64,000 nt of DNA from Rhodothermus marinus (GTDB lineage: Bacteria; Bacteroidota; Rhodothermia; Rhodothermales; Rhodothermaceae): positions 1,045,501 to 1,109,500 of the forward strand of contig NZ_AP019797.1 of the NCBI RefSeq assembly GCF_009936275.1. Direction: 5' to 3'. The notes under the pieces were generated by a model. That model saw nothing but the letters and a program-made list of their open reading frames with translations, was not told where the DNA came from and did not search any database. A program made the position numbers and the translations under genes. Position 1 is the first letter of the stretch. Each line of letters starts with the position of its first letter. Of the stretch, positions 9,915-15,634 are shown in pieces.

Positions 9915-10073
9915 CCCCCCTCAGGCCCTTCGGGCCAGCTCCCCCTGGAAGGGGGAGCGGTGTCTACGGGCTACGGCTGGCGATGGCGGCGGGCGCCTGC
10001 GCATGTTTCGGCGCTGAGGTTTTTTCCTGATGTGCTTCCCCCTCCCTGCCCGGGAGGGGGTCAGGGGGAGGGT
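9915..10073 (+). repeat. Element B, copy 1 (intact)
   Basis: About 160 bp. The left box has CTCCCCCTGGAAGGGGGAGC (a perfect hairpin), the middle contains GGGCTACGGCTGG and GCATGTTTCGGCGCTGAGG, and the right box has CTTCCCCCTCCCTGCCCGGG followed by AGGGGGTCAGGGGGAGGGT. It is the uninterrupted version of the copies that carry the two IS4-type insertions, and so shows the empty site. Confidence 0.85.
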
Positions 10074-10121: not shown

Positions 10122-10260
10122 ACCCCCACAGGCCCTTCGCGACCGCTCCCCCTGGAAGGGGGAGCGGTGTCCACGGGCTACGGCTGGCGGTGGTGGTGGG
10201 CGCCTGCGCATGTTTCGGCGCTGAGGTTTTTTCCTGATGTGCTTCCCCCTCCCTGCCCGG
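10122..10260 (+). repeat. Element B, copy 2, left part (split by IS)
   Basis: Nearly identical to copy 1 up to the right box, where IS4-type copy 1 has landed. The rest of the element, GAGGGGGTCAGG onward, continues at 11779-11798 beyond the insertion. Confidence 0.85.
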
Positions 10261-11766
10261 CTTATCTTTACCCACAAGTGCCGTGGGATTAGCAGGAGGA
10301 TACTTAAGATAACCTTTTACCCCAGCGAAGCAATCAAAGAGGAGCCCCAAATGGATACGGAAAACCCTGAGCTTGATGAGCTGTCCGCCTGGCTTGTGCA
10401 TGAGTTACACGACGTTGCGCTGGGCGATAAGCGTCTGGAGCGGCGACTGCTCACAACAGGCGCCAAACTGGCGGCCAGGCCTTCGGTGTCAATCAATCAG
10501 GCCTGTGCGGATTGGGCCGACACCAAGGCCGCCTACCGGCTCTTTGCCAATGCCAAAACGACCGCCGAAAAGATCCGCGCGCCCCATTATCGCCGCACCC
10601 GGGAACGAGCCCGGGGGCACAAACGGCTCTTTGCCATTCAGGACACGACGTATCTGAACTACACCCATCACCCGAGTACCAAGGGGCTGGGGCCCATTGG
10701 CACCGCGCAGCAGAAGCTGTCCGGCATGATCCTGCACACCAGCCTGCTGATGACGGAGCAAGGCCTTCCGCTCGGATTGGCCAGCCAGGAGATCTGGGTG
10801 CGTCCGCCTAAAATGCACCAGCGCACCGCAGCAGCACGACGCAAACTGCCGACCGAAGCTAAGGAAAGCGCCAAGTGGCTCAAGGCCCTGCGCCAGAGCC
10901 GGGCCGTTGTTCCCCCCGAGGCGCAGCTTATCACCATCGGCGACAGCGAGTCGGACCTTTTTGCGCTGTTTGACCTGGCCCGCGCCCTGGGGACCGAGCT
11001 GCTGGTGCGGGCCGCCCAGAACCGTTCGGTCTGTGCGCCCGAGGTGGGGCGGCTCTGGGAGGTGATGGGCCGGCAGGCGGTGTGCGGTCAGCTGCAGGTG
11101 GTTGCCTCGGCCCGCAAAGGGAAGCCGAAACGCCAGGCCCTGGTCACGGTGCGCTTTGCGCCTGTGAGCTTGAAAGCCCCCCAGCACCTGCGCAAAACGA
11201 TGGGCGACATGCCACTCTATGCGGTGCTGGTGCAAGAGGAGGCTCCGCCCCGGGATGTCAGCTCCCCTTTGTGCTGGCTTCTTTTGACCACGGTGCCTGT
11301 AGATAGTTTTGCCGACGCCGTGGAGCGGATCCGGTGGTACGGCCTGCGCTGGCAGATTGAAGTCTATCACAAGGTGCTCAAATCGGGATGCGGTGTGGAG
11401 AAAGCTCAGTTGGCCAGTGTGGAGCGTTTGTTGCCTTATTTGGCCCTTTTGAGCATCATCGCCTGGCGTCTTTTCTGGATGACGCTGCTGGCGCGTCATG
11501 CGCCGGAGGCGCCCTGCACGCTGGTTTTGGCCGCACATGAGTGGCGGGCCCTGTATGCCTTCCACCACAAGACCCACCAGGTGCCGGCCCGGCCGCCCAC
11601 GGTGGGTCAGGTGGTCTTGTGGATTGCGCGGCTGGGCGGCTTTTTAGCTCGCAAAAACGACGGTCCTCCGGGTGTCACGGTGCTCTGGCGTGGTTGGCAA
11701 CGTCTTAGCGATATTGCCTCCGCCTGGCTTACCTTTCACCCCTCCTGATTTGTGGGTAAAGGTAAG
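10261..11766 (+). mobile_element. IS4-family insertion sequence, copy 1
   Basis: 1506 bp. The terminal inverted repeats are CTTATCTTTACCCACAA at the left and its near-complement TTGTGGGTAAAGGTAAG at the right. A 12-bp direct duplication, CTCCCTGCCCGG, lies at 10249-10260 and 11767-11778, so this copy arrived by ordinary transposition into the right box of a B element. A 10-13 bp duplication is typical of the IS4 group. One transposase gene, no passenger. Confidence 0.92.
10351..11748 (+). CDS. IS4-family (Tn5-like) transposase
   Basis: 465 residues from the ATG at 10351, preceded by AAAGAGGAG; an upstream in-frame ATG at 10237 lies outside the IS and is not the start. The N-terminal part resembles the Tn5 transposase DNA-binding domain (ALGDKRLERRL and WADTKAAYRLFAN). 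The DDE core shows IQDTTYLNY, ITIGDSESD and the IS4 signature RWQIEVYHKVLKSGC, which contains the conserved Tyr, Arg, Glu and Lys spacing. The frame is intact and the enzyme is probably active. It differs from copy 2 only near the C-terminus (ASAWLTF against AAAWLAF). Confidence 0.93.
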   Translation: MDTENPELDELSAWLVHELHDVALGDKRLERRLLTTGAKLAARPSVSINQACADWADTKAAYRLFANAKTTAEKIRAPHYRRTRERARGHKRLFAIQDTTYLNYTHHPSTKGLGPIGTAQQKLSGMILHTSLLMTEQGLPLGLASQEIWVRPPKMHQRTAAARRKLPTEAKESAKWLKALRQSRAVVPPEAQLITIGDSESDLFALFDLARALGTELLVRAAQNRSVCAPEVGRLWEVMGRQAVCGQLQVVASARKGKPKRQALVTVRFAPVSLKAPQHLRKTMGDMPLYAVLVQEEAPPRDVSSPLCWLLLTTVPVDSFADAVERIRWYGLRWQIEVYHKVLKSGCGVEKAQLASVERLLPYLALLSIIAWRLFWMTLLARHAPEAPCTLVLAAHEWRALYAFHHKTHQVPARPPTVGQVVLWIARLGGFLARKNDGPPGVTVLWRGWQRLSDIASAWLTFHPS

Positions 11767-11778
11767 CTCCCTGCCCGG
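11767..11778 (+). repeat. Target-site duplication of IS4 copy 1
   Basis: CTCCCTGCCCGG, identical to the 12 bases just before the left end of the IS (10249-10260). The intact element B copy 1 has this sequence once. Confidence 0.92.
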
Positions 11779-11809
11779 GAGGGGGTCAGGGGGAGGGTTG
11801 AATTGTTGT

Positions 11810-12000
11810 CCCCTCAGCGGCTTCGCAGCAGTTCCCCTGCGAGGTGGAGCGTGTTCTGTGAACTTGAGTTGGCGGTGTATCTGGACGTACCGCCTGTTCC
11901 GAACGTTGGGTTCTTTTGATGGGCGTTCGGGATAGCGCTGCTTCTGAATTTTTGAACGCTTCCCCCTCCCTTTTCAAGGGAGGGGGTCAGGGGGAGGGTT
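11810..12000 (+). repeat. Element B, copy 3 (diverged middle)
   Basis: It starts CCCTCAGCGGCTTCGCAGCAG and ends with CTTCCCCCTCCC, a short arm, GGGAGGGGG and TCAGGGGGAGGGT. The boxes are conserved but the interior differs from copies 1, 2 and 5. No gene lies in 11779-12248 apart from these elements. Confidence 0.75.
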
Positions 12001-12009
12001 GAATTATTA

Positions 12010-12112
12010 ACCCTCAACCGCTTCGCGACAGCTCCGCCTGTAAGGGAAGCGTGTTCTGGAGGCTATGGCTGACGGGGAAAGCAGGCGTCTGAGCATGTTT
12101 CAGCGCCGGCGT
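12010..12112 (+). repeat. Element B, copy 4, left part only
   Basis: Begins CCCTCAACCGCTTCGCGACAG, followed by GAGGCTATGGCTGAC and GAGCATGTTTCAGCGCC, the usual left box and middle. The right box is missing; the sequence instead runs into the leader of the DUF559 gene. Confidence 0.7.
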
Positions 12113-12248: not shown

Positions 12249-12599
12249 ATGTCGGTCAATCGCGCGCGCGTACAATACCGTCGCTGGCTTCGGCGACAGG
12301 CCACGCCGGCCGAACGACGGCTCTGGGCCTGCTTGCGAAAACGTCAGTTGGCAGGACGTCGTTTTCGTCGCCAGCACAGCATCGGACCTTATGTGGTGGA
12401 TTTTTACTGTCCGTCGGAGCGACTGGTGATCGAGTTGGATGGGGCGGTGCATGAAGATGTGGCCCGAGCGTGCTACGATGCCCGGCGTGAGGCATATCTG
12501 CGATCGCGGGGGCTTCGGGTGTTGCGCTTTGAGAATCGGCAGGTGCTGGAGCAGCTGGATACGGTGCTGGAGGCGATCCGCCAGGCGTTTCGTGGGTGA
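12249..12599 (+). CDS. DUF559 endonuclease-like protein
   Basis: 116 residues. It matches the DUF559 family, small proteins with the fold of very-short-patch-repair (Vsr) endonucleases. Visible are ERRLWACLRKRQLAGRRFRR (about residues 22-41), then VVDFYCPSERLVIELDG with Asp51, Glu62 and Asp64 as the PD-(D/E)xK-like site, His68, and LRVLRFENRQVL near residue 95. The family's biological role is not settled. No clear ribosome binding site precedes the ATG. It sits between a left-half B element (12010-12112) and another B element (12641-12779), in the place where a right half would be, and the whole is flanked by two IS4 copies. Nicking or mobilising B elements is possible but is only a hypothesis. 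Confidence 0.85.
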   Translation: MSVNRARVQYRRWLRRQATPAERRLWACLRKRQLAGRRFRRQHSIGPYVVDFYCPSERLVIELDGAVHEDVARACYDARREAYLRSRGLRVLRFENRQVLEQLDTVLEAIRQAFRG

Positions 12600-12640: not shown

Positions 12641-12779
12641 ACCCCCTCAGTCGCTTCGCGACAGCTCCCCCTGGAAGGGGGAGCTGTGTCTGCGGGCTAC
12701 GGCTGGCGGTGGTGGTGGGCGCCTGCGCATGTTTCGGCGCTGAGGTTTTTTCCTGATGTGCTTCCCCCTCCCTGCCCGG
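12641..12779 (+). repeat. Element B, copy 5, left part (split by IS)
   Basis: Nearly identical to copies 1 and 2. Interrupted at the same right-box position by IS4 copy 2; the remainder AGGGGGTCAGGGGGAGGGT is at 14286-14304. Confidence 0.85.
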
Positions 12780-14285
12780 CTTATCTTTACCCACAAGTGC
12801 CGTGGGATTAGCAGGAGGATACTTAAGATAACCTTTTACCCCAGCGAAGCAATCAAAGAGGAGCCCCAAATGGATACGGAAAACCCTGAGCTTGATGAGC
12901 TGTCCGCCTGGCTTGTGCATGAGTTACACGACGTTGCGCTGGGCGATAAGCGTCTGGAGCGGCGACTGCTCACAACAGGCGCCAAACTGGCGGCCAGGCC
13001 TTCGGTGTCAATCAATCAGGCCTGTGCGGATTGGGCCGACACCAAGGCCGCCTACCGGCTCTTTGCCAATGCCAAAACGACCGCCGAAAAGATCCGCGCG
13101 CCCCATTATCGCCGCACCCGGGAACGAGCCCGGGGGCACAAACGGCTCTTTGCCATTCAGGACACGACGTATCTGAACTACACCCATCACCCGAGTACCA
13201 AGGGGCTGGGGCCCATTGGCACCGCGCAGCAGAAGCTGTCCGGCATGATCCTGCACACCAGCCTGCTGATGACGGAGCAAGGCCTTCCGCTCGGATTGGC
13301 CAGCCAGGAGATCTGGGTGCGTCCGCCTAAAATGCACCAGCGCACCGCAGCAGCACGACGCAAACTGCCGACCGAAGCTAAGGAAAGCGCCAAGTGGCTC
13401 AAGGCCCTGCGCCAGAGCCGGGCCGTTGTTCCCCCCGAGGCGCAGCTTATCACCATCGGCGACAGCGAGTCGGACCTTTTTGCGCTGTTTGACCTGGCCC
13501 GCGCCCTGGGGACCGAGCTGCTGGTGCGGGCCGCCCAGAACCGTTCGGTCTGTGCGCCCGAGGTGGGGCGGCTCTGGGAGGTGATGGGCCGGCAGGCGGT
13601 GTGCGGTCAGCTGCAGGTGGTTGCCTCGGCCCGCAAAGGGAAGCCGAAACGCCAGGCCCTGGTCACGGTGCGCTTTGCGCCTGTGAGCTTGAAAGCCCCC
13701 CAGCACCTGCGCAAAACGATGGGCGACATGCCACTCTATGCGGTGCTGGTGCAAGAGGAGGCTCCGCCCCGGGATGTCAGCTCCCCTTTGTGCTGGCTTC
13801 TTTTGACCACGGTGCCTGTAGATAGTTTTGCCGACGCCGTGGAGCGGATCCGGTGGTACGGCCTGCGCTGGCAGATTGAAGTCTATCACAAGGTGCTCAA
13901 ATCGGGATGCGGTGTGGAGAAAGCTCAGTTGGCCAGTGTGGAGCGTTTGTTGCCTTATTTGGCCCTTTTGAGCATCATCGCCTGGCGTCTTTTCTGGATG
14001 ACGCTGCTGGCGCGTCATGCGCCGGAGGCGCCCTGCACGCTGGTTTTGGCCGCACATGAGTGGCGGGCCCTGTATGCCTTCCACCACAAGACCCACCAGG
14101 TGCCGGCCCGGCCGCCCACGGTGGGTCAGGTGGTCTTGTGGATTGCGCGGCTGGGCGGCTTTTTAGCTCGCAAAAACGATGGTCCTCCGGGTGTCACGGT
14201 GCTCTGGCGTGGCTGGCAACGTCTCAGCGATATTGCCGCCGCCTGGCTTGCCTTTCACCCCTCCTGATTTGTGGGTAAAGGTAAG
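12780..14285 (+). mobile_element. IS4-family insertion sequence, copy 2
   Basis: 1506 bp with the same inverted repeats and orientation as copy 1. The left junction is identical to copy 1 (after CCCTGCCCGG), but the right flank is AGGGGGTCAGG with no 12-bp duplication. Five single-base differences from copy 1 cluster in the last 110 bases; I saw none upstream. This suggests recombination or gene conversion with another copy rather than an independent insertion. Confidence 0.9.
12870..14267 (+). CDS. IS4-family (Tn5-like) transposase, copy 2
   Basis: 465 residues, intact, with the same motifs as the first copy: WADTKAAYRLFAN, ITIGDSESD and RWQIEVYHKVLKSGC. The predicted protein is identical to copy 1 except for two residues near the end (Ser to Ala and Thr to Ala in the last dozen positions). 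The start ATG has the same AAAGAGGAG upstream. Confidence 0.93.
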   Translation: MDTENPELDELSAWLVHELHDVALGDKRLERRLLTTGAKLAARPSVSINQACADWADTKAAYRLFANAKTTAEKIRAPHYRRTRERARGHKRLFAIQDTTYLNYTHHPSTKGLGPIGTAQQKLSGMILHTSLLMTEQGLPLGLASQEIWVRPPKMHQRTAAARRKLPTEAKESAKWLKALRQSRAVVPPEAQLITIGDSESDLFALFDLARALGTELLVRAAQNRSVCAPEVGRLWEVMGRQAVCGQLQVVASARKGKPKRQALVTVRFAPVSLKAPQHLRKTMGDMPLYAVLVQEEAPPRDVSSPLCWLLLTTVPVDSFADAVERIRWYGLRWQIEVYHKVLKSGCGVEKAQLASVERLLPYLALLSIIAWRLFWMTLLARHAPEAPCTLVLAAHEWRALYAFHHKTHQVPARPPTVGQVVLWIARLGGFLARKNDGPPGVTVLWRGWQRLSDIAAAWLAFHPS

Positions 14286-14312
14286 AGGGGGTCAGGGGGA
14301 GGGTCGAATTGT

Positions 14313-14385: not shown

Positions 14386-14463
14386 TCCGGGTCGGTCCGA
14401 CCCGGGAACCCATCGCACGCCATTTGAAGTTTGCTGTTTTCGCAGGGCTATCCTTTTCCAAGC

Positions 14464-15099
14464 ATGGCGATTCTGACGGTCCCGAAAGTTTTGCGCGAAA
14501 AGCTCGGCGACGAGGGCGTCGAGGCGCTGATCGCTTTGCTTAACGAAGCGGCCCATCACGAGCGGGACAACCTGCTGGGGATCCTGGCCGAGCGTTTCGA
14601 GCGGCGGGTGACGGAGGAGGGGAAACGGCTGGAGGTCCAGATGGCGGAGCTGGAGAAGCGACTGGATCATCGGATCACAGAGGAAGTGTCGCATCTGGAA
14701 AAGCAGATGGCGGAGTTAGAGAAGCGGCTGGATCATCGGATCACGGAGGAGGTGGCCCGTCTGGAAAAGCAGATGGCGGAGTTGGAGAAGCGGCTGGATC
14801 ATCGGATCACGGAGGAGGTGGCCCGTCTGGAAAAACAGATGGCGGAGCTGGAGAAGCGGCTGGATCATCGAATCACAGAGGAGGGGAAACGGCTGGAGGT
14901 CCAGATAGCGGAGTTGGAGAAGCGACTGGATCATCGGATCACAGAGGAGGTGTCGCGACTGGAAAAGCAGATGGCCGAGGTATCGGCGCAGTTGCAGGTG
15001 ACGCTCAGCGAGCGCTATGCGAGTCTGGTGCGGTGGATGTTTATTTTCTGGGCGGGGCAGATCGGGGTGATTGCGGCACTGCTGGCGCTGCTGCGATAG
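14464..15099 (+). CDS. Coiled-coil protein with 22-residue repeats and C-terminal membrane anchor
   Basis: 211 residues from the ATG at 14464. A short N-terminal head (VPKVLREKLGDEGVEALIAL) resembles that of LA_3696-type bacterial coiled-coil proteins. Residues about 48-172 are tandem copies of a 22-residue unit, AELEKRLDHRITEE plus a variable part. Twenty-two residues equal two 11-residue turns, so this is a continuous stalk. The C-terminus has one membrane helix (WMFIFWAGQIGVIAALLALL). A head, stalk and anchor layout is also known from the CCDC90/DUF1640 family, a possible distant relative. It probably forms a membrane-anchored oligomer; its function is unknown. It lies in the B-element island after a left-half element. 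Confidence 0.7.
   Translation: MAILTVPKVLREKLGDEGVEALIALLNEAAHHERDNLLGILAERFERRVTEEGKRLEVQMAELEKRLDHRITEEVSHLEKQMAELEKRLDHRITEEVARLEKQMAELEKRLDHRITEEVARLEKQMAELEKRLDHRITEEGKRLEVQIAELEKRLDHRITEEVSRLEKQMAEVSAQLQVTLSERYASLVRWMFIFWAGQIGVIAALLALLR
14605..14979 (+). repeat. In-frame 66-bp tandem repeats
   Basis: Five full units and one partial unit of 66 bp encode the coiled-coil stalk. The units starting at 14737 and 14803 are almost identical at DNA level, which points to recent expansion and likely length variation between strains. Confidence 0.9.
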
Positions 15100-15470: not shown

Positions 15471-15634
15471 CACCCTCCCCCTGGCCCCTCCCGGGCAGGG
15501 CGGGGGAAGCACATGAGGGAAGACAGCGACGCTGAAACGCGCCCGGGCACCCGTTGCTACAACCAGCCCAGCCGTAGCCAACAGATCCTGCTTCCCCTTG
15601 CAGGAGAAGCTGTCGCAAAGCGGCTGAAGGGGGC
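15471..15634 (-). repeat. Element B, copy 7 (inverted)
   Basis: Reverse complement of the B element. It starts ACCCTCCCCCTGGCCCCTCC, then has CGGGCAGGGCGGGGGAAGCA, an interior containing CAGCGACGCTGAAACGCGCC and CCGTAGCCAACAG, and ends with a left box that includes GACAGCTTCTCC in reverse. More diverged than copies 1, 2 and 5. Confidence 0.7.

Follow-up and report, generated by a model that had tools for sequence, protein, structure and literature searches.

DUF559 is a common protein family without an assigned function, and its member in Escherichia coli K-12 is ycjD. The fold shared by Vsr and certain homing endonucleases supports metal-dependent DNA cleavage. Rickettsia palindromic elements are palindromes read in frame inside protein genes. 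The BoxC, PIT and triplex (TM) repeats have been described since the 1990s and, to our knowledge, have no known origin. A 2015 survey reported BoxC-type copies in more than 260 genomes, including 23 BoxC/TM copies in E. coli MG1655, and tied them to genome instability; its account records no mobility gene in their context and, for the E. coli copies, neither a transposase nor an integrase (PMC4666352). The words 'nuclease', 'DUF' and 'ycjD' are absent from the main text of that article, which gives the repeats no enzyme. Searches of the open-licence literature returned no link between DUF559 and BoxC/PIT/TM or palindromic repeats, and such a link may have been published elsewhere. Here, starting from a locus of Rhodothermus marinus, we present evidence that makes DUF559 the strongest candidate so far for the enzyme, long sought, by which BoxC-type repeats are moved.

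The window is a stretch of 64,000 nucleotides of the R. marinus genome that was analysed as a whole. Its plus-strand ORF at 12249-12599, with an ATG start and 116 codons for amino acids, encodes a real DUF559 endonuclease: residues 8-113 match PF04480 at 120.9 bits (E 2.8e-35) against a curated cut-off of 20.6, and a family scan recovered it as the sole DUF559 match in the 3.43-Mb genome. Eleven residues (E22, F39, Q42, D51, F52, E62, D64, G65, H68, R80 and R93) are invariant in 72 aligned homologues and all eleven are retained in the window protein, bearing out the first-pass annotation, which had noted a complete set of acidic active-site residues. Their conservation suggests that they are of the catalytic type. 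An AlphaFold2 model of the protein (mean pLDDT 90, pTM 0.82) finds the Neisseria DUF559 structure 3hrl as its best structural match (E 1.6e-8), followed by the homing endonuclease I-Bth0305I (3r3p; E 1.9e-5, TM 0.65/0.76, the latter by target). E. coli Vsr is a weaker match (1cw0; E 0.23, TM 0.67 by query length). A sequence search against solved chains gave the same order, with 3hrl at E 1.3e-20 and then 3r3p at E 0.057. The predicted fold is Vsr/I-Bth0305I-like and, as modelled, belongs with those of the homing nucleases.

The earlier label 'Vsr-like' is thus upheld by the structure search as regards fold, but not as regards a Vsr-type repair role, which suits this genome poorly. The window protein has no match to the Vsr family PF03852 at E <= 0.001, nor does any other protein of the genome, and PF00145 (C5-cytosine methyltransferase), the one methyltransferase family covered by our search, has zero matches genome-wide. 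For these two families, the earlier remark that no methyltransferase or repair partner lies nearby is therefore true of the whole genome. No Pfam match to a Y1 (HUH) transposase was obtained either, DUF559 and MTES_1575 being the only Pfam matches. A role in defence was set aside, as the PADLOC matches are weak and partial (best DpdF, E 6.5e-6; homing endonuclease, E 1.5e-4).

The gene lies inside a repeat island of about 9.9-14.3 kb, in which two kinds of boxes, A and B, alternate. The B-box GAGGGGGTCAGGGGGAGGG is present in five copies in the window (at most 3 mismatches) against 0.06 expected from shuffles, and the A-box core in five against 0.00. Across the whole genome there are 10 B-box sites (at most 2 mismatches), four of them in the island, and a single DUF559 gene. 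The B-box has the layout CCCCCTCCC-loop-GGGAGGGGG-TCA-GGGGGAGGG, the last block being an exact mirror of the purine arm. Upstream of the gene on the plus strand, a B-box at 11962..11998 presents the full triplex-type motif, with none of 200 shuffles folding as well, and is followed by a decayed A-box at 12009..12050, whose fold is poor (23 of 200 shuffles are as good). Directly downstream, the A-box at 12642..12687 (plus strand) comprises an outer mirror block CCCCCTC, a small hairpin and the palindrome CAGCTCCCCC-TGGAA-GGGGGAGCTG, with an exact match at 12642; it folds at -15.9 kcal/mol, which none of 200 shuffles equals when only hairpins are folded. As its upstream A-box is decayed, the window member may be past its active life, though the protein looks intact. 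Further plus-strand boxes are an A-box at the upstream end of the island (9916..9961; repeat analysis, box scan and folding), an intact B-box laid out as the one at 11962 (10038..10072; 27 of 200 shuffles fold as well) and a partly decayed A-box copy (10123..10168; repeat analysis and core scan). At the downstream edge, B-like and A-like boxes are found in the opposite orientation on the minus strand (15472..15634; inverted pairs I1-I11 and box scans).

Two near-identical IS4/Tn5-type insertion sequences of 1506 bp, both on the plus strand, have entered the island. Copy 1 (10261..11766, transposase 10237-11748) splits a B-box into a left half at 10245..10260, recognised from sequence and the repeat families D7 and D13, and a right half at 11767..11797, recognised from sequence and repeats. 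It sits between two 12-bp copies of CTCCCTGCCCGG (10249-10260 and 11767-11778), which look like a target duplication. Copy 2 (12780..14285) appears to split another plus-strand B-box, with a left half at 12764..12779 (sequence and repeats) and a right remnant at 14286..14303 in which the duplicated bases are missing, the right-hand CTCCCTGCCCGG duplicate being absent. In G004, a genome of the same genus, the island occupies the corresponding position but lacks the insertion sequences. These IS4-family copies are later visitors outside the box system, and the IS4/Tn5-type element may target these palindromes. Another genome of the genus, G005, has 56 B-box-like sites and no DUF559 match in an assembly of 260 contigs, with many of the sites at contig ends. 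A gene at 14431-15099 contains five 66-bp tandem repeats and codes for a coiled-coil protein with an LA_3696-type N terminus. The first 71 residues of this protein have 24 match rows in the genome, several of them near B-boxes (e.g. at genome positions of about 1,030,000-1,033,700).

The family scan recovered DUF559 in 170 of 296 genomes of the phylum. Palindromes were first seen at 19 short-frame loci. Two larger samples followed: a phylum set of 60 short-frame loci, one per genome, each with flanks of about 6 kb unless the contig ended sooner (15 of the 60 were already among the loci seen), and a multi-phylum set chosen from named genomes by protein similarity alone, comprising the best 80 of 567 confirmed loci. 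Palindromes were defined as pyrimidine-first, with a perfect 7-bp stem and a loop of 2-12. Within 250 bp of the gene, the phylum set has 58 such palindromes upstream (14,834 bp of sequence) and 59 downstream (14,837 bp), against 43 in 554,406 bp at 1-6.1 kb. The best 80 of 567 multi-phylum loci have 85 in 19,552 bp and 81 in 19,875 bp, against 81 in 680,925 bp at 1-6.1 kb. The density is hence about 4 per kb close to DUF559 versus about 0.1 per kb at 1-6 kb, a 35-50-fold difference in both samples. Counted by locus, 53 of 60 in the phylum set have a palindrome within 600 bp (32 on both sides, 12 upstream only, 9 downstream only), and four of the remaining seven still have flanking direct repeats. 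Among the best 80 of 567, the count is 75 (57 on both sides, 10 upstream, 8 downstream), leaving five with none; the boxed loci of this set span 15 named phyla and one record without a phylum, and include one archaeon, with the single Balneolota and Omnitrophota loci having no box.

This pattern is specific in several respects. Purine-first palindromes of equal composition, counted as a control, number 2 versus 137 pyrimidine-first ones within 500 bp in the phylum set, and 3 versus 166 within 250 bp among the best 80 of 567 multi-phylum loci. Palindromes lie on both sides of 85 of the 134 DUF559 genes that have 250 bp or more of sequence at either end (31/58 and 54/76). The same is true of only 2 of the 600 other ORFs in these loci that are 100 aa or longer (0/273 and 2/327). 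Likewise, direct repeats link the two flanks at 39 of 58 DUF559 loci as against 4 of 165 placements elsewhere, and boxes are present even in genomes of 33-45% GC. A phylogenetic profile, which the first-pass annotation had proposed, points the same way: the exact palindrome CCCTCTCCN{2,5}GGAGAGGG is found in 45 of 126 genomes whose DUF559 match is strong, in 2 of 44 where it is weak and in 10 of 126 that have none, where the strong/weak split at about E 1e-15 was picked after inspection of the list and the shared ancestry of the genomes is ignored. Read backwards, the same palindrome occurs zero times in every listed genome. DUF559 is thus flanked by short palindromes that are found elsewhere in the genome, as in REP/RAYT-type systems, and the earlier suggestion that palindromes are a meaningful context of the gene is strongly supported by two samples and the ORF control, which make it general.

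Certain other features of these loci are worth recording. Many draft contigs end about 1 kb or less from DUF559, as expected if boxes break assemblies. DUF559 copies at L112, L144 and L256 and in the genomes G296 and G273 have one in-frame stop codon and are apparent pseudogenes; at least the first three of these keep their flanking boxes. Eight Lysobacterales loci (L116, L123, L127, L135, L139, L150, L156 and L165) share one DUF559 site behind the same gene, at which the palindromes vary in their loops but keep perfect stems; in L139 and L156 the stems have changed in pairs.

We then compared the boxes with the published TM consensus, CCCTCNCCCN3-6GGGNGAGGGN3GGGNGAGGG (PMC4666352). Among the best 80 of 567 multi-phylum loci, the palindromes typically have a G-rich tail TTGGGGTGAGGG that points towards the gene at both ends: the tail is directed inward in 39 upstream and 34 downstream cases, outward in 7 and 4, absent in 20 and 27, and present in both directions in one. 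In hairpins with asymmetric arms, the third block is closer to the mirror of the arm than to a direct copy of it (68 vs 13 of 103, and 77 vs 11 of 122), a property for which the stem search exerts no selection. The strict TM consensus has 24 copies within 350 bp of the gene versus 7 beyond 1 kb in the best 80 of 567 loci, making it 29 times denser near the gene, and 16 of these 80 have a copy within 350 bp. The window B-boxes at 10038 and 11962 have a pyrimidine arm, a purine arm and a mirror block, with loops of 3-6 and 3; their arms, CCCCCTCCC, depart from the strict published consensus. Judged by its layout, the box of the DUF559 loci is a BoxC triplex repeat, the triplex itself being predicted.

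The E. coli genome offers an instance of this link. The K-12 gene ycjD, a DUF559 gene, lies at 1,351,407-1,351,760 on the minus strand, and BoxC/TM copy 9 of the published list, at 1,351,204-1,351,239 (PMC4666352, Table 1), lies 167 bp past its end. The sapF-fabI interval contains ycjD and BoxC in many E. coli strains and an efflux operon in others (L263, L266 and L267); this swap has been described in an article that, in its account of it, does not mention the repeat (PMC12817139). The E. coli control genome of our scan has no PF04480 match although K-12 has ycjD, and is perhaps a strain without the gene.

Over 123 loci, the similarity of box arms rises with protein identity (Spearman 0.428, 0 of 500 permutations). 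The correlation is 0.247 among the best 80 of 567 multi-phylum loci (0/500) and is weak, 0.099, in the Bacteroidota set alone (8/500). An identical arm is found in 75% of pairs at 0.60-0.75 protein identity and only 8% at 0.40-0.45. Shared ancestry contributes to this co-variation. Paralogues in four genomes share 37-65% identity, except for one pair at 93%. Those in the 37-65% range mostly carry different boxes within a single genome, as is the case in one genome with six DUF559 paralogues, and this indicates that the boxes follow the protein rather than the host. Recent within-genome bursts of the gene were looked for in these paralogues and not seen; the gene copies are mostly old and divergent.

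Sister species preserve different states of an insertion. At a site that we call the pdxJ-era site, examined in eight genomes of one genus, of which seven were readable (G173 was left out), G064 has no unit, G068 has one decayed unit, G039 and G054 have one lone unit, and G027, G099 and G161 have DUF559 between two units in direct repeat. Each unit consists of two triplex boxes in inverted order with the third blocks outside. Alignment of the lone unit of G039 with the two units of G027 shows 96.7% agreement with the left part of the left one and 100% agreement with the right part of the right one. The gene and one unit hence come or go by unit-unit recombination, in either direction, and a lone unit might be what remains after loss of the gene instead of an ancestral state. 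Most loci have one gene per lineage, inherited in place, as at the single site of the eight Lysobacterales loci, which suggests that movement of the gene is rare.

Long-frame DUF559 proteins had been planned as a negative control, on the premise that they are fusions without boxes; as they proved to carry boxes and to be inserted in frame, that control was given up. When 7 of 20 long-frame loci were scanned with HMMs, DUF559 was placed in leucyl-tRNA synthetase (at two positions), methionine synthase, HsdR, HsdM, a RecB-like helicase and IcmF, in most cases with host domains on either side; the remaining host names were judged from the sequence by eye. No intein domain was detected in the seven host proteins at E <= 1e-8. 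A survey of leuS across 120 genomes of one family, with 53 fetched loci read and 47 giving a result (G370, G365, G392, G312, L194 and L203 were excluded), found a DUF559 insert of at least 150 aa at one loop in 10 of the 47, the others having 24-47 aa there, a ratio that is not a frequency since the loci fetched were the 30 best matches plus those that appeared to have an insert. One of these 10, L232, has a fossil DUF559 insert with the frame kept, in which the RRQH and GxxH motifs, most hallmark residues and the boxes are lost. The same loop contains other short in-frame inserts in L224, L226, L228, L219, L221 and L242, with the repeated peptides VIASEAKQS, RHSELVSES and HAELVEA; these probably derive from other repeat families, and the loop looks like an insertion hotspot. 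In a tree of 88 proteins, built on few columns and with many forks open, the host label changes 12 times, and in one supported clade of 19, insertions in leuS (both sites), metH, icmF, recB-like and purQ occur together with stand-alone genes. The pyrimidine and purine runs of the boxes are almost free of stop codons and are read as linkers (PSPSGRG, PLPLGEG); hence insertion in frame is tolerated.

We consider it probable that DUF559 acts as the cognate nuclease of palindromic repeats that form a selfish system, and the best reading is one that works like RAYT/REP with an unrelated enzyme. Each DUF559 lineage would have a box of its own. This box is a pyrimidine-first palindrome in which one arm is usually mirrored by a third block, and as a single strand it could fold into a hairpin or an intrastrand triplex of the BoxC/PIT/TM kind. 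We infer that the enzyme would recognise its box when extruded or single-stranded and nick or cut there, upon which repair with another box as template would spread boxes to new places. Occasionally, the whole box-gene-box cassette might be copied, including in frame into host genes. What speaks for this reading is the association itself, the three-block boxes and their co-variation with the protein, the excess of boxes over genes, the insertion states of sister species, the in-frame insertions and the intact active-site-type residues; the loci with no qualifying palindrome within 600 bp (5 of the best 80 of 567, and 7 of 60), the 56 box sites of G005, where no DUF559 was found, the mostly in-place inheritance of the gene, the weak box-protein correlation within the Bacteroidota set and the possible origin of lone units by gene loss count against it.

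Other explanations have to be weighed against the cognate-nuclease reading. Chance or composition, by which GC-rich repeats would lie near the gene without meaning, has some appeal for the window alone, which is GC-rich and offers few loci to compare; it is refuted by the controls, as boxes occur in genomes of 33-45% GC, the purine-first control is all but empty, and the far flanks and other ORFs are without boxes, and we attach practically no weight to it. Alternatively, something else might move the boxes, with DUF559 as cargo or merely settling in box islands. Boxes far from any DUF559, the tested palindrome in 10 of 126 genomes without the gene and the case of G005 would all suit such a passenger, as would the lack of a mobility gene in the published context of the E. 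coli BoxC copies (PMC4666352). Yet this leaves unexplained the co-variation of box and protein, the different boxes of same-genome paralogues and the recurrence of the arrangement in 15 named phyla among the best 80 of 567, and the flanking pattern is unique to DUF559 among the ORFs of the loci (2 of 600 for the others); we regard it as unlikely.

The similarity in fold invites the idea of very-short-patch repair, in which DUF559, like Caulobacter VsrA in a published proposal, would fix T:G mismatches on behalf of a solitary cytosine methyltransferase; the boxes would then be incidental or regulate the gene. VsrA indeed has a DUF559 domain and triggers a DNA-damage response in the absence of the methyltransferase ScmA, but mismatch repair is offered there as a hypothesis (PMC12907096). 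With neither PF00145 nor PF03852 in the window genome, and with the in-frame insertions and paired boxes left unexplained, this is improbable. A guardian function, whereby DUF559 would clear or resolve replication-stalling hairpins and triplexes and the neighbouring boxes would be self-regulatory, is in our judgement very improbable: in-frame insertion into leuS or metH with two boxes is not expected from it, nor are the empty-site and lone-unit states, and PIT elements are reported to have no promoter or terminator activity (earlier work cited in PMC4666352), even if boxes are reported to halt polymerases in vitro and to mark loci that are unstable (PMC4666352), and are more numerous in genomes with DUF559. 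Boxes as terminators or promoters were also considered and set aside, as they lie on both sides of the gene and inside reading frames.

The link between DUF559 and BoxC yields a functional hypothesis for the family and makes an old question about the repeats testable in E. coli. It would also account for the unusual in-frame insertions seen in conserved enzymes such as leucyl-tRNA synthetase and methionine synthase, and would show that a palindrome-plus-nuclease lifestyle has evolved around an enzyme that bears no relation to the transposases of RAYT systems. We see about an even chance that a broader proposal holds, namely that the mobility enzyme hitherto missing for BoxC-type triplex repeats is DUF559, and that DUF559 proteins thereby define a new class of mobile elements. 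This class would pair a Vsr-fold nuclease with its own triplex-forming palindromes in most bacterial phyla and some archaea, and would enter essential genes in frame without a splicing device, by means of nearly stop-free boxes that read as soft Pro/Ser-Gly/Glu linkers.

A close parallel is with REP/RAYT (REPtrons and REPINs), which likewise have a single nuclease-type gene between copies of a short genome-dispersed palindrome, paired inverted boxes, gene-specific repeats and mostly vertical inheritance of the gene, the REP side of this comparison being drawn from PMC3733652 and general background. The enzymes differ, however, DUF559 being a Vsr-fold PD-(D/E)XK-type nuclease and RAYT a HUH/Y1 transposase, as do the tags, a mirror block predicted to be able to form a triplex in the former and GTAG in REP; moreover, the DUF559 in-frame insertions carry the nuclease gene itself. 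With regard to BoxC/PIT/TM, the boxes of proteobacteria, E. coli included, agree with the published consensus, and the window B-box shares the three-block layout but departs from the strict consensus in sequence. Unlike the Rickettsia palindromic elements, the DUF559 insert also carries a nuclease domain. Vsr is comparable in fold (1cw0, TM 0.67 by query length), but the window protein has no Vsr family match, its genome has no PF00145 C5-cytosine methyltransferase and the context is different. The EDxHD homing endonuclease I-Bth0305I (3r3p) provides the closest solved fold after 3hrl and is likewise a selfish gene in a conserved host gene; in contrast to it, DUF559 has no intron or intein around it and no long DNA-binding extension, and has boxes at both ends.
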